Position numbers and translations under genes: made by a program | Notes under the pieces: model-generated | Databases searched by the model: none | Seen by the model: only the letters and a program-made list of their open reading frames with translations | What the model was told of the DNA's origin: nothing | DNA from: a virus | DNA: 32,813 nt | IMG/VR virus record: IMGVR_UViG_3300005253_003496 | Span: 1-32,813 of that record | Reading direction: 5' to 3' (one strand) | Shown: positions 19,915 to 25,645 of the stretch, in pieces | Layout: every line of letters begins with the position of its first letter | How positions within the stretch are numbered: the stretch's first letter is position 1

Positions 19915-21104
19915 TCACCCGCCACCCTACCCCCGCGTATCGCCTGGTGGTGAACGGGCAAGACATCACCCCCAAGATCAACAACCGCCTGGTCAGCCTG
20001 GCACTTACTGACAACCGGGGTTTAGAGGCCGACCAACTCAGCATCAGCCTCACCGATCACGACGGCCTGCTCAGCATTCCCCCACGCGGCGCCGAGGTGC
20101 AGCTCTGGCTCGGCTGGACCGATACCGGCCTGGTATACAAAGGCAGCTATACCGTGGATGAAACCGAGCACAGCGGCGCGCCCGACGTGCTCAGCATCCG
20201 CGCTCGCAGTGCCGATCTGCTCGCCGGCCTCACACGCAAGCGCGAGCGCAGCTGGCACAGCATCACCCTGGCAGACATCATCACCACCATCGCCAAAGCC
20301 TACAGCCTCAAACCGGTGATTGACCTGGTGCTAGGTGCTATCCCGGTACCGCACCTAGACCAAGCCGACGAATCAGACGCCAACCTGCTCACCCGCCTTG
20401 CGCAAGATCATGACGCGATAACGACCGTCAAAGCCGGCCACCTGCTGCTGATGCCCGTGGGGGCCAGCAAAACCGCCAGTGGCGTCAACCTGCCCCACAT
20501 CCGTTACACCCGCGCAGATGGCGACAGCCATCGCTTTCTGCAGGCAGACCGCGACGCCTACACCGGCGTGCGCGCCCACTACTACGATCCCAACAGCGCA
20601 GAGCGTCTAGAAGCCCTCATCGGCACAGACGACAACATCAAAACATTACGCCACGTGTACGCAGACCAAGCCAGCGCCCTGCAAGCCGTGCGCAGCGAAT
20701 GGCAGCGGCTGCAACGAGGCGTATCCACCCTCAGCTACACCCTCGCCCGTGGCCGCGCCGATCTAATCCCGGAAATGACCTACAGCCTCAGCGGCATCAA
20801 ACAGCCAATCACAGACGTGGTGTGGCTCTGCAGCCGCGTGATGCACAACCTGAATGACAGCGGCTACACGGTCGCCCTGGAGCTGGAAAACCAGCTCGCT
20901 GAGGATGAAGATTTAGCAGCGCTGGTAGAAACCGAATACACCGGCGTAATGGCCTGGTACCGGGATAAAGACGGCACCCAGAAGAAAGTGATCGAAGGGG
21001 ATCAAACCAGCCCGCTGCGCCTTACTCACTTGTATGTGAGCAAGGCCAATGCGGAGCGGGCAGTGAAGCGGGAATTTGAGCGATTAAAAGACTCAGGGCT
21101 CTGA
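19911..21104 (+). CDS. D: Late control/tail hub protein, P2 gpD-like
   Basis: Tail hub protein of the P2 D / T4 gp27 type, 397 aa against 387 in P2 gpD. The N-terminal half has PAYRLVVNGQDITPKINNR, DNRGLEADQLSISLTDHDG and AEVQLWLGWTD. The middle has LADIITTIAKAYSL and LDQADESDANLLTRLAQDHD, and the C-terminus has YVSKANAERAVKREFERL. The start overlaps the U stop. In P2 the late activator ogr comes next; here the 3' end instead overlaps, by 12 bases and tail to tail, the last gene of a leftward cargo operon. Confidence 0.95.
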   Translation: MITRHPTPAYRLVVNGQDITPKINNRLVSLALTDNRGLEADQLSISLTDHDGLLSIPPRGAEVQLWLGWTDTGLVYKGSYTVDETEHSGAPDVLSIRARSADLLAGLTRKRERSWHSITLADIITTIAKAYSLKPVIDLVLGAIPVPHLDQADESDANLLTRLAQDHDAITTVKAGHLLLMPVGASKTASGVNLPHIRYTRADGDSHRFLQADRDAYTGVRAHYYDPNSAERLEALIGTDDNIKTLRHVYADQASALQAVRSEWQRLQRGVSTLSYTLARGRADLIPEMTYSLSGIKQPITDVVWLCSRVMHNLNDSGYTVALELENQLAEDEDLAALVETEYTGVMAWYRDKDGTQKKVIEGDQTSPLRLTHLYVSKANAERAVKREFERLKDSGL

Positions 21105-21524
21105 GGGGGTTAAGTTGTGCATTACTAACCACAGGCGGTATCCGATATCGACTAACAGCAATGTGGCGAAAACGAAGAAAAAGAACGCACCGTAGGTGAG
21201 TATTGGCGTTGAGTCTCTCAGCACTGCAGACACAAGTGCTGCGACCATTGCAGCCGCAAATGCCGCTGAGTTTATGAAAAATCTACGCAATAGCACCCTG
21301 TAGTGCCCTGTTCTCTGCATATTCCTTAACAGTCTGTGGCCCGATATGGATGCCAATATCGAAAGCGCTGCAATCAGAAATCCGAGCATGGTTGCGGATA
21401 TCTGAGCAAACAGGCTTATAACATTGTGGATATCATCGCCCAGGGTGGGAATGGTGTTGCTCGTGTGCACCAGCCACGCGAGGGCTACGGCCAGCAAACA
21501 GCTCAGAAACGTCCAATATTTCAT
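21093..21524 (-). CDS. Unrecognised four-helix membrane protein, partner of the upstream 289-aa protein
   Basis: I do not recognise a named family. The 143-aa protein shows four hydrophobic segments: about residues 5-20 (possibly a signal anchor), 36-60 (SLFAQISATMLGFLIAALSI), 82-102 (FFINSAAFAAAMVAALVSAV) and 108-133 (LTYGAFFFFVFATLLLVD). A basic loop, RLLRNMQRTGHYRVLLRR, lies between segments 2 and 3 and should face the cytoplasm if both termini are inside. It starts 2 bases after the stop of the 289-aa gene, so the two are almost certainly translated together. Its last 12 bases overlap the end of D. A small membrane protein paired with a soluble partner in a prophage cargo slot is a layout shared by several phage-defence systems (for example Kiwa, KwaA with KwaB), but I cannot show homology. 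Confidence 0.8.
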   Translation of the reverse strand: MKYWTFLSCLLAVALAWLVHTSNTIPTLGDDIHNVISLFAQISATMLGFLIAALSILASISGHRLLRNMQRTGHYRVLLRRFFINSAAFAAAMVAALVSAVLRDSTPILTYGAFFFFVFATLLLVDIGYRLWLVMHNLTPSEP

Positions 21525-21526
21525 GG

Positions 21527-22396
21527 TTATTCATCCAAAAATTTGGAAAGCTTTATATCCATTCGCAGCGTGGATCTCCATATTTCGTCGTGTACTACCG
21601 CGCTGCTGATTACTCCATTGTCCATCTCTACACTGATTTTGTCTTTAATACGATCAGCGAAAAGGTCTATTGGATCGCTTTGATCTGAGACCTTAATTTT
21701 CAGCTTTTTGGTTTGCTTCGATTCAGCCAACAGACGAAGTTTAGGCACAATATCAGTCAACAACCCTTTCTTCGGTGAGTAGGTCACGACTTTTGCCTGA
21801 AATCTGGTTGCTCCTGAATTATCCATAAATTCGATAGCTTGCTGGGTCCAGGTATCTTCAGGATCCGGCATGTACTTTTTGGCAGTTGGCTTTGCCACTT
21901 TGAATTCAACGTATTGAACCCGCTTTCCCTGCAGCAAAGCGTCTAATGTCTCTTCGGTGACAAGATCAGCAACCATGATAGTCGTTTGTCTATCCGCAAT
22001 ACCGGCTAAATAGCGGCCCAATGCTTGAGCCGAACCACCCTCCATCGTTGACTGATAAGCAAGAACAAACGCCGAGCCTTTCTTGTAAAACGCAAAGTGG
22101 TTTTTATCGATTACCTCTTCGCCTTCCGCCAATTCAACAGGCTTTTCTTCATCATGGTTCCTAGACCCCGCTATAGGGCGATCGTCGCGAAATCGAACCA
22201 AATGTCCTGAATATTTTCCATCCTTCAAACTGACACCACGTAACTGATAATCAGAGCCTTGATCTAAAAGAGAGAGGGCGCGGGTAATGATGCTTTTTTG
22301 CACAATCCCATCAAACAGCAACGAGAGGTCATACTCTTTTCCATCACGGTGTGCCTGAATGCGGTAATACCTAATGGTGTAATGCTTAGTAGTCAT
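21527..22396 (-). CDS. Unrecognised 289-aa soluble protein, first gene of a two-gene cargo module
   Basis: The family is not recognised with confidence. The protein has a beta-rich N-terminus (HYTIRYYRIQAHRDG), a charged middle (SRNHDEEKPVELAEGEEV), then a strand-helix block HFAFYKKGSAFVLAYQST followed by GGSAQALGRYLAGI. A second strand region (KRVQYVEFKVAKPTAKKY) comes next. The C-terminal half is basic, with RLLAESKQTKKLKIKVSD, and ends in strands around VEMDNGVISSAVVHDEIWRS. No nuclease, ATPase or protease signature is visible. The pattern hydrophobic strand, then G-x-S, then Y-L is seen in uncharacterised DUF4868/DUF6731-type proteins, the first of which includes KwaB; this is a weak recollection, not a match. 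The gene has lower GC than the phage backbone. The membrane gene follows after 2 bases. The ATG at 22396 is preceded by AGGCGA. Confidence 0.8.
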   Translation of the reverse strand: MTTKHYTIRYYRIQAHRDGKEYDLSLLFDGIVQKSIITRALSLLDQGSDYQLRGVSLKDGKYSGHLVRFRDDRPIAGSRNHDEEKPVELAEGEEVIDKNHFAFYKKGSAFVLAYQSTMEGGSAQALGRYLAGIADRQTTIMVADLVTEETLDALLQGKRVQYVEFKVAKPTAKKYMPDPEDTWTQQAIEFMDNSGATRFQAKVVTYSPKKGLLTDIVPKLRLLAESKQTKKLKIKVSDQSDPIDLFADRIKDKISVEMDNGVISSAVVHDEIWRSTLRMDIKLSKFLDE

Positions 22397-22404
22397 GCAT
22401 TCGC

Positions 22405-22545
22405 CTAATTCTTAGAGTTGTTCGTTGTTGAAAATAAAGCAGCCTGCCAATGTTCCTCACCCACAATCGAAATCGGCACCCCAGCCTTCCTGGGCTCCAC
22501 CGCTTTCATGAATTCCAGGCCGTTGCTGCCTGACTGCGGCTTAAC
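22405..22545 (-). pseudogene. Possible frameshifted C-terminal remnant of the cysteine-repeat gene
   Basis: Directly after the fourth repeat the +1 frame stays open for about 47 codons (from AVKPQSGSNGLEF through GEEHWQAALFSTTNNSKN). It stops at 22405, only 8 bases before the next gene's ATG. Other gaps in this operon are 2-40 bases, so the otherwise 144-base gap looks like lost coding sequence. Removing one G from the GGG run near 22548 would join the frames. The alternative is a plain leader for the two-gene module; no clear promoter is visible there. Confidence 0.35.
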
Positions 22546-23020
22546 CGCCCTCTTCAATACAATGTTCAACCATGTCGTACTCCATGCCCCATTGCCGCTC
22601 ACACTGATTTCGGAGCGCGCCTGAGTACTGCTCAACACGGCTTTTTGCTGCACGCATCTCTTTCTGGCAGTGATCGCGCATTTCGTAGTCGTCGCGCCAT
22701 TCATTAGCGCAGTAGCCCGCTATGGCGTCACTTGGCCCTGAAGCCACACGGTTCTGAGCTGCAGTCTGCTCTTTAACGCAATGCAGGGTCATTTCAAAAT
22801 CGATGCCCCAGTCATCTGCACAGCGCTCCCGGATTGCACCGCTATGCGCCTGTAAAGTCCGCAGGGCGCTGCTCTGCTCACCGACGCAATAATCGTACAT
22901 CTCTCGATCAGAACCCCACTCCACTGCGCAATGCTCAGTTACGTCTGCATTGGTTTGGGCTGAAATCGTGGTGGCATAGCAGGCAAGAACAAGCACGCTT
23001 AAAAAAATGTGGCGCGTCAT
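22541..23020 (-). CDS. Exported protein with four cysteine-pair repeats
   Basis: The 159-aa product has a signal sequence (hydrophobic residues about 5-20, possible cut after ISA at 21; C14 in VLAC could instead be a lipobox). The mature part has four repeats of 36-37 residues, each with two Cys 14 apart: 31/45, 67/81, 104/118 and 140/154. The repeat reads roughly C-x4-W-x3-[DE]-x-M-x3-C-x2-E. Pseudomonas genomes carry many uncharacterised proteins with such C..W..DY.M..YC repeats; no function is known to me. Even Cys pairing suggests periplasmic disulfides. The fourth repeat ends abruptly two residues after its Glu (GG then stop). The +1 frame continues openly to 22405, so a frameshift may have cut the C-terminus. 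Confidence 0.82.
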   Translation of the reverse strand: MTRHIFLSVLVLACYATTISAQTNADVTEHCAVEWGSDREMYDYCVGEQSSALRTLQAHSGAIRERCADDWGIDFEMTLHCVKEQTAAQNRVASGPSDAIAGYCANEWRDDYEMRDHCQKEMRAAKSRVEQYSGALRNQCERQWGMEYDMVEHCIEEGG

Positions 23021-23035
23021 GGGGCAATCCTTTGC

Positions 23036-23545
23036 TTAGAGTTGCGCGATTAGCTCGGCGCGCTTGGTGGCGAACTCTTCTTCTGTCAGAAGCCCTGCTT
23101 CCTTGAGGCTGGCTAACTTAGTCAGCCTCTCTGCGGGATCTAAAGTTAACGGGAGTGGCACCGCTGAACTGTCCGGCGCTGGGCTCTGAGATTCCCTGCC
23201 GGCATTGATAGCAATGGCCAGCGCCGCCTCACCCTGTTTATCAAACGTCTTGAATTCAAGATGATCATGGCTTGTGTGCAACCTGAGTACGCGATGGCCT
23301 AATATTGACTTACGCTCTACTGAAGTAATGCTCTTGAGCGGCATTGTTTCTAGTACCTCCCCCAGCATGCCCTTGCGATAAAACACGGCGCGTTGCTGCG
23401 TAACAATCATGCAGCCGTTTTGCTGAGCATCTTTACCAGAGCCCATTGCCTTGCCGATGTAACCTTCCGCAGTAGCAACAATCTCTTCGCCTGGCTCAGC
23501 GTGCCGCGTTTTAAAGTTAACGACGTGTTTTGATTCCTTAGCCAT
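23036..23545 (-). CDS. PH-like plus SHOCT domain protein
   Basis: The 169-aa product has a PH-like N-terminal domain (about residues 10-115) of the bacterial bPH_3/YokE type: GEEIVATAEGYIGK, NGCMIVTQQRAVFYRKGMLG and METMPLKSITSVE-like strands, then VLRLHTSHDHLEFKTF. A Ser/Pro linker follows. The C-terminal SHOCT motif spans about 136-169 (DPAERLTKLASLKEAGLLTEEEF, key LASLKEAGLLTEEEF). SHOCT segments are short oligomerisation helices found at the ends of many bacterial proteins. No transmembrane segment is seen. Strong ribosome site AGGGAG before the ATG at 23545. It follows the repressor by 40 bases on the same strand, so it is probably made in the lysogen. Its role is unknown; it could be stress- or envelope-related. 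Confidence 0.82.
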   Translation of the reverse strand: MAKESKHVVNFKTRHAEPGEEIVATAEGYIGKAMGSGKDAQQNGCMIVTQQRAVFYRKGMLGEVLETMPLKSITSVERKSILGHRVLRLHTSHDHLEFKTFDKQGEAALAIAINAGRESQSPAPDSSAVPLPLTLDPAERLTKLASLKEAGLLTEEEFATKRAELIAQL

Positions 23546-23585: not shown

Positions 23586-23963
23586 TCAGCCAGATTTCTT
23601 ACTATCTACCGAATGCCGCGCTGCCGATTCCGCAAGCGCATTGGTCAGGCGCTGCACCGACACCCGATCCTCCTCAGGGAGGGACCGATAGTTATCCAGT
23701 ACCACTGATTCCCGTTCACTGAGTCCCTCCACTGGTCTCGGCATCCGTTGCCCTGTCAGTACGTACATCACATCAAATCCAAGAGATGCGAGCCCAGCGA
23801 GCTTATCGCTTGGAATTGCAATGACCTTCTCCCAGCGCCCCACCGTTTTGAGATTCACGCCCAGGGCGTGAGCGATGTCCTGCTGGTCGAGCCCAAGAGC
23901 CTTCCTTTCTTCACGCAAGCGCGAACAGACAGAAAAGTCTTTTTCCTGTTGCGCAATGGTCAT
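23586..23963 (-). CDS. Prophage repressor, Cro/CI-type helix-turn-helix
   Basis: The 125-aa protein has an HTH_3 domain at about residues 13-68: RLREERKALGLDQQDIAHALGV, with recognition helix around NLKTVGRWEKV. A LASLGFDVMYVLTGQR segment follows, typical of short Pseudomonas phage regulators. The C-terminal part (ERESVVLDNYRSLPEEDRVSVQRL) is helical and suited to dimer formation. It lacks a CI-type peptidase domain, so it would not be cleaved by RecA, much as P2 C is not. It is divergent from the early operon, and operator candidate O1 covers its own start codon. AGGA lies 7 bases before the ATG. It holds the lysogenic state and likely leads the leftward cargo operon. Confidence 0.9.
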   Translation of the reverse strand: MTIAQQEKDFSVCSRLREERKALGLDQQDIAHALGVNLKTVGRWEKVIAIPSDKLAGLASLGFDVMYVLTGQRMPRPVEGLSERESVVLDNYRSLPEEDRVSVQRLTNALAESAARHSVDSKKSG

Positions 23964-24776: not shown

Positions 24777-25328
24777 GTGAATACAACTACCGCTCTGATT
24801 CCTGTTTTCAATGGTGAGCTTGATGGCCGTCAGCAACACCTATGTAACGCTCAGGATCTGCACCAGCACCTTGCCGTTAGCACCCGTTTTAATGACTGGG
24901 TCAGCCGCCGAATCGAGCAATATGGATTCATCGAAGACGAGGACTTTTACTCAGTTTTGAGTAAAAGTGAGGGTGGCAGGCCTTCCGTTGAGTACCACTT
25001 GACGCTCGATATGGCCAAAGAACTCGCCATGGTCGAAAACAACGAACAGGGCCGTCAGGTTCGCCGTTACTTCATCAGCATGGAGCGCGAAGCACGCGAA
25101 AGCCGGGGGGCGTCTTACCTGTCCGTTTCACAACAGCTCACCATTCACAAGCAAGTGCCCCGCCTGCTGGCGTTACTCAAGAGCGAGACCATCCCGGCAG
25201 TGCGCCAAACCTTGCACGCTCAGCTGGTGCAGCACTGCCACTTGCTAGCCATACCGGTGCCAGCACTGGAGCAGATCGGGCGCAGCGGCCAAAGCGCCAC
25301 CGGAGAGTTATTCCCGGAGGTGCCATGA
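24777..25328 (+). CDS. AntA/AntB-type antirepressor
   Basis: The 183-aa product contains an AntA/AntB domain at about residues 10-110: LCNAQDLHQHLAVSTRFNDWV, RRIEQYGFIEDEDFYS, GGRPSVEYHLTLDMAKELAMVENN, EQGRQVRRYFISMER (each within the conserved core). Phage antirepressors of this group inactivate repressors and favour lytic growth. The C-terminal ~70 residues (LTIHKQVPRLLALLKSE onward) are helical and vary in the family. It starts with GTG at 24777, three bases after the YmfL-like stop. The stop overlaps the ogr start (ATGA at 25325). Its target here could be the 23586-23963 repressor; this is untested. Confidence 0.87.
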   Translation: MNTTTALIPVFNGELDGRQQHLCNAQDLHQHLAVSTRFNDWVSRRIEQYGFIEDEDFYSVLSKSEGGRPSVEYHLTLDMAKELAMVENNEQGRQVRRYFISMEREARESRGASYLSVSQQLTIHKQVPRLLALLKSETIPAVRQTLHAQLVQHCHLLAIPVPALEQIGRSGQSATGELFPEVP

Positions 25329-25645
25329 CAGCCCCAAACCACGGCGGCTACCGCTGCCTTTGCCCTGCATGCGGTGAGCCTATGTTCATCCGCAAGAGCG
25401 AAAAGCAAACCCCGATCTTCCAGACCATGTATGCGCGGTGCAGCAACATGGTCTGCGGAGCGAGCTACGTAGGGGCGCTGGAGTGGCAGTACACGCTTTC
25501 GCCGTCGGGGCTTCCGGCGCCAAAGGTAGAGCTGCCGCTCTCGCCCACCAAGCAGCGGTTACAAGCCATGCAGGATATGGCGCCCAGCGCCAACACAGAT
25601 CAACTCACATTTCTTGAGCAGCTCGACCAGGAGGCCAACGCATGA
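25325..25645 (+). CDS. ogr: Late-gene transcription activator, Ogr/Delta zinc finger
   Basis: The 106-aa protein has the Ogr/Delta signature: C13-x2-C16, 22 residues, C39-x4-C44, with the arginine-rich IRKSEKQTP stretch and a Tyr before the second Cys pair (MYARCSNMVCGASYVG). In P2 and P4 this zinc protein binds near -55 of late promoters and contacts the RNA polymerase alpha subunit. P2 Ogr is 72 aa, so this one carries a ~35-residue C-terminal tail. In P2 the gene follows D; here it lies in the early operon between the antirepressor and an unknown gene. The 15-base motif at 1806, 8279 and 14593 is its likely target. Confidence 0.9.
   Translation: MTAPNHGGYRCLCPACGEPMFIRKSEKQTPIFQTMYARCSNMVCGASYVGALEWQYTLSPSGLPAPKVELPLSPTKQRLQAMQDMAPSANTDQLTFLEQLDQEANA

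Follow-up and report, generated by a model that had tools for sequence, protein, structure and literature searches.

What is the role of two adjacent genes, one for a soluble and one for a small membrane protein, that lie between gene D and the repressor of a P2-like phage? The window, the whole stretch of 32,813 nucleotides analysed here, is a P2-like phage genome. Among named phages, those nearest to it by DNA are from Pseudomonas aeruginosa, for example Dobby and D14A (genus Citexvirus). The 289-aa soluble protein is present at 100% identity in a metagenome assembly of Halopseudomonas sabulinigri, and those stretches of the window that were compared with this assembly agree at 100% with two of its contigs; therefore, the window is most likely a prophage there. 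The initial annotation of the window described two open reading frames 2 bp apart on the strand opposite to the late genes, and we confirmed both of them, with this 2-bp gap, on the minus strand (Table 1). Their minus-strand block runs leftwards in the order repressor, bacterial-PH/SHOCT gene, 159-aa gene, 289-aa gene and 143-aa gene.

Table 1. Positions of the gene pair and of the surrounding genes in the window.
Feature	Position	Strand	Evidence
RexB-like gene, 143 aa, four membrane helices, probable effector	21093..21524	-	PADLOC RexB; model m7a71fc1951ba
RexA-like gene (DUF6731), 289 aa, probable DNA-binding sensor	21527..22396	-	Pfam PF20505; model m6c377ff8c6be against 8twq
159-aa gene between repressor and rexA-like gene, signal-peptide-like start, Cys-containing repeats	22541..23020	-	Sequence
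169-aa bacterial-PH + SHOCT gene	23036..23545	-	Pfam bPH_3 1.3e-8, SHOCT 4.6e-7; phrog_2700 1.4e-42
Phage repressor (HTH), head of same-strand block	23586..23963	-	Pfam HTH_3 7.2e-7; PHROG transcription-regulation matches
AntA antirepressor gene, precedes Ogr/Delta gene	24777-25328		
Ogr/Delta zinc-finger gene, early region, after AntA antirepressor gene	25325-25645	+	

We compared the position and composition of the pair with the rest of the window. The GC content is 0.44 for the 289-aa gene and 0.50 for the 143-aa gene, lower than in gene D (0.61) or in the window overall (0.587), in agreement with the earlier remark that the pair is AT-richer than the backbone. The reduced GC content spans the entire minus-strand block, with values of 0.52–0.55 for the next three genes. 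The pair had been assigned to the slot of ogr; the Ogr/Delta gene lies elsewhere, in the early region (Table 1) and not beside D where P2 has it, and the pair forms the distal end of the repressor block. The stop of D ends at 21104 and that of the 143-aa gene is at 21093, giving convergent 3′ ends that overlap by 12 bp. This end-to-end overlap with D is real as first described, but overlapping stops do not prove the precise insertion that had been read from it. In Dobby and D14A, the interval from D to the repressor also carries differing genes, which marks the tail end of the repressor block as a place of variable cargo. In D14A, this interval (L037:3938-6905) is occupied by a DNA methyltransferase gene, a gene with a ParB domain and one further gene of no known function, and thus takes up different cargo. 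A scan for sigma-70 promoters found none on the minus strand of the block, and its site count was below that of shuffled sequences.

Regarding the two genes that separate the pair from the repressor, the bacterial-PH/SHOCT protein is about 50% identical to proteins of Vibrio and Salinivibrio phages. For the 159-aa protein, Pfam and PHROG gave no confident family match, and a tblastn search of phages found nothing. In four related loci (L005, L011, L015 and L018), the gene directly upstream of the rexA-like gene likewise encodes a small protein whose start resembles that of a signal peptide or lipoprotein, and at a glance these upstream proteins and that of the window show no evident mutual likeness.

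The soluble 289-aa protein belongs to Pfam DUF6731 (PF20505), with an E value of 4.5e-12 and a score of 46.5 bits against a curated cut-off of 27 over residues 5–274; this is the family that the initial annotation had named as a check. It also matches three PHROG families of no known function. In an alignment of 15 sequences, the invariant positions include Arg70, Lys98, Phe101, Pro170, the motif P242-I-D-L and Asp248. The AlphaFold model has a pLDDT of 84.3 and a pTM of 0.80. The structure search that had been proposed was carried out on this model with Foldseek, and lambda RexA (8twq) is the sole PDB match below an E value of 0.001 (2.1e-6). Re-alignment (VIA) of the model with 8twq gives a Z score of 12.6 and an rmsd of 3.4 over 146 residues. 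The next matches are the kinetochore proteins Chl4, Iml3 and CENP-N with Z scores of 6.0–7.5, followed by bacterial RdgC with 5.8–5.9. The authors of the RexA structure reported RdgC, IML3 and CHL4 as structural relatives of RexA (PMC11077077), and the match to RexA is more convincing because these runner-up folds are the published relatives of RexA itself.

Sequence comparisons of the soluble protein with lambda RexA gave a different picture. The hhalign profile comparison does not rise above shuffled controls, since 27 of 100 shuffled RexA sequences score as well, and the Pfam search returned no match of the 289-aa protein to the lambda RexA family, PF15969. A profile search of PDB sequences returned nothing useful. 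The putative kinship with RexA is visible in the predicted fold and undetected by sequence comparison alone. Similarity to PF15969 is, however, not a defining feature of the RexAB type, because the Pseudomonas putida and Sbash systems were likewise recognized by remote homology and structure.

The 143-aa partner contains four hydrophobic segments, and its model shows four long helices with a short helix between the second and the third, consistent with the four-helix membrane protein of the initial annotation. The RexB profile of PADLOC matches this protein with an E value of 3e-4 and matches 11 of the 13 members of the membrane-protein family, the best at 2e-6; with the Pfam RexB model, significance is not reached. 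When the RexB-like family is compared with lambda RexB, the score, which arises around the second helix and the following loop, exceeds those of all 100 shuffles. In a viral structure library, a protein of phage ctylc9 is the best match for the 143-aa model and a 165-aa Sbash protein is third, both weakly (E values of 0.003 and 0.24, respectively). The best match for the soluble protein in this library is also from ctylc9.

Kiwa (KwaA/KwaB), which had been named as an example of such pairs, has a similar outline, with a soluble protein and a membrane protein of four helices at a position that varies. The structure and profile matches point to RexA and RexB instead. Neither KwaA nor KwaB matched in PADLOC at E values up to 5 and DUF4868 did not match in Pfam at E values up to 1, in libraries that presumably contain the KwaA, KwaB and DUF4868 models. 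A Kiwa-like system is therefore rejected as extremely improbable on the profile matches; the absence of KwaB among the structure matches listed excludes nothing by itself.

To analyze the association between the two genes, we gathered relatives from phages, viral contigs and bacterial genomes. A scan of the viral contigs with the single protein recovered zero relatives, and an alignment of three sequences then recovered them; the plasmid search gave no match. Pairing was counted over distinct loci that were found by the family profile or by a strong Pfam score and had enough downstream DNA. In all 19 such loci, which are not all independent (AUS531phi and L015 are close relatives, as are L014 and L016), a same-strand reading frame of about 140–200 aa with three or four hydrophobic segments adjoins or overlaps the end of the DUF6731 gene. 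L018, which is cut off downstream of its DUF6731 gene, lies outside this count. The co-occurrence survey suggested earlier thus finds the pair kept in every confident locus, and only two borderline hits at the Pfam cut-off (L030 and L031) are without the membrane-protein neighbour. In both of these, the DUF6731 gene stands tail to tail with a helicase-like gene; they probably represent another DUF6731 subfamily, and possibly this fold with another function. Since many other genomes carry homologues of both window genes side by side, the two are not chance reading frames.

The homologues are also rare. Of 298 genomes from the family to which G004 belongs, 5 carry them; the order of G005 gives 4 of 245 genomes, and other samples give 2 of 399, 2 of 369 and 1 of 399, where some counts include the centre genome. 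The family is thus found in about 0.3–2% of the sampled genomes, mostly with phage genes, as expected of prophage cargo and unlike a housekeeping gene. A housekeeping role was rejected on these grounds: instead of standing mostly alone in housekeeping positions, the homologues are rare, prophage-associated and paired.

A same-strand repressor lies upstream in at least 11 of the 19 loci (the window and ten others), and a domain search found repressor domains (HTH or S24 peptidase) in all ten of the upstream same-strand genes tested. By eye, L026 looks like a twelfth repressor-associated locus. The repressor directly adjoins the rexA-like gene in Aaphi23, AUS531phi, L004, L013, L017, L041 and L042, as in lambda. 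Several loci lie away from any repressor; for example, L014 and L016 are among phage structural genes and L020 is near a restriction-type methylase gene, as labelled by sequence reading. The position of the pair within the repressor block also fits a role mainly in the lysis–lysogeny switch of the phage itself, exerted by a RexA-like protein that binds DNA non-specifically, with exclusion minor or absent. The RexA structure report describes that lambda RexA without RexB can bias the bistable switch towards lysis (PMC11077077). We consider this role quite improbable, as all confident relatives retain the RexB-like partner, even away from repressors (L014, L016 and L020).

The pair thus combines the traits of the RexAB type, namely a predicted RexA fold, a four-helix RexB-like partner, conservation as an adjacent pair and a same-strand position downstream of the repressor, the last of which is not universal in the family. 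From the RexA fold match, the RexB profile match, the constant pairing, the upstream repressor and the gene order of P. putida, we consider it highly probable that these two genes, which close the repressor block of the prophage, encode an exclusion system of the RexAB type. The initial proposal of a prophage cargo pair of the anti-phage defence or exclusion kind is supported by this predicted homology to RexA and RexB; the further idea of a new kind of defence system gives way to a kind that is already known.

We next compared the pair with known systems. Lambda RexA and RexB (PF15969/PF15968) share with it the two-gene order downstream of the repressor and on its strand, the RexA fold (Z score of 12.6) and the RexB profile match, and the sizes are near-identical (279 and 144 aa in lambda, 289 and 143 aa here). 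The window differs in having DUF6731 and not PF15969, with RexA-like sequence similarity not above shuffles, in the two extra genes between the repressor and the rexA-like gene, and in being a P2-like and not a lambdoid phage. By January 2026, five RexAB-like systems in all had been described, and the one published in that month, RexABpp of P. putida prophage 1 (PP_5643/PP_5644), resides in a prophage of a related bacterium (PMC12894663). RexABpp consists of a RexA-fold DNA-binding protein and a four-helix membrane protein (PMC12894663), as predicted for the pair of the window. Its reported gene order of repressor, two genes, rexA and rexB is shared with the window. Phage defence is proven for RexABpp (PMC12894663), whereas it is predicted by analogy for the window pair.

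True homologues by sequence are ORF16/ORF15 of Haemophilus phage Aaphi23 and QGF21354/QGF21355 of Pseudomonas phage AUS531phi; these correspond to both genes and immediately follow cI, with about 23–26% identity between the RexA-like proteins and that of the window. All are annotated as hypothetical, and the two phages are of other types than the window. Mycobacteriophage Sbash has, in gp30/gp31, a two-gene prophage defence of proven activity whose RexB-like protein has four helices (PMC6426596), and the 165-aa Sbash protein that ranks third and weakly (E value of 0.24) in the structure search has the length of gp31. However, gp30 is longer than the RexA-like protein here (372 compared with 289 aa), and profile comparisons with Sbash gp30 and gp31 are not above shuffles. 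The PADLOC profile PDC-M67A weakly matches the RexA-like protein (3.2e-4, over about a third of the profile) and PDC-M67B weakly matches one member of the RexB-like family (0.014); PDC-M67, a PADLOC candidate system without a described function, may be a system of the same kind. We also considered the exclusion genes of phage Fc02 (PMC9936078), which are unlike this pair.

By analogy with these systems, the pair likely keeps other phages from multiplying in its host. Lambda, Sbash, CarolAnn and P. putida are the basis for inferring DNA binding, exclusion that needs both genes and membrane damage. Low levels of the RexA-like and RexB-like proteins would arise in the lysogen from the repressor transcript or a local promoter, and translation of the rexB-like gene would probably be coupled to that of the rexA-like gene across the 2-bp gap. 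A dimer of the RexA-like protein would bind DNA and sense DNA or protein–DNA intermediates of the infecting phage. It would then activate its four-helix partner, the RexB-like protein of the inner membrane, and the resulting loss of membrane integrity or polarization would stop growth and abort the infection. Neither sequence nor fold tells the effector from its partner, and a system that is RexAB-type by descent may also work the other way, with a toxic RexA-like effector that the membrane protein restrains until infection. The P. putida report describes such reversed roles in the same gene pair for gp30/gp31 of mycobacteriophage Butters, and it describes RexB as the effector in four of the five characterized systems, including that of P. 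putida with the same gene order (PMC12894663). We therefore regard the reversed arrangement as unlikely, and favour the RexB-like protein as the effector of a RexAB-type exclusion system.

RexAB-type systems are already known, and a prophage-borne Pseudomonas example with the same gene order has been published. What is added here is a connection of DUF6731 with the RexA fold and, for its constant partner, with RexB; no mention of DUF6731 was found in the literature searched. A tentative further suggestion is that the pairs of DUF6731 and RexB-like proteins make up a branch of their own within the RexA/RdgC fold, distinct from lambda Rex and with a trigger of its own, spread over many proteobacterial prophages and including PDC-M67. 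In summary, DUF6731 and three unnamed PHROG families are tied to RexA, and a set of membrane proteins without names to RexB, which opens such prophage pairs to annotation and to exclusion testing. What triggers lambda Rex is not yet known, and the natural pairs aid the search for conserved contacts. The locus puts the RexAB arrangement in a P2-like phage.
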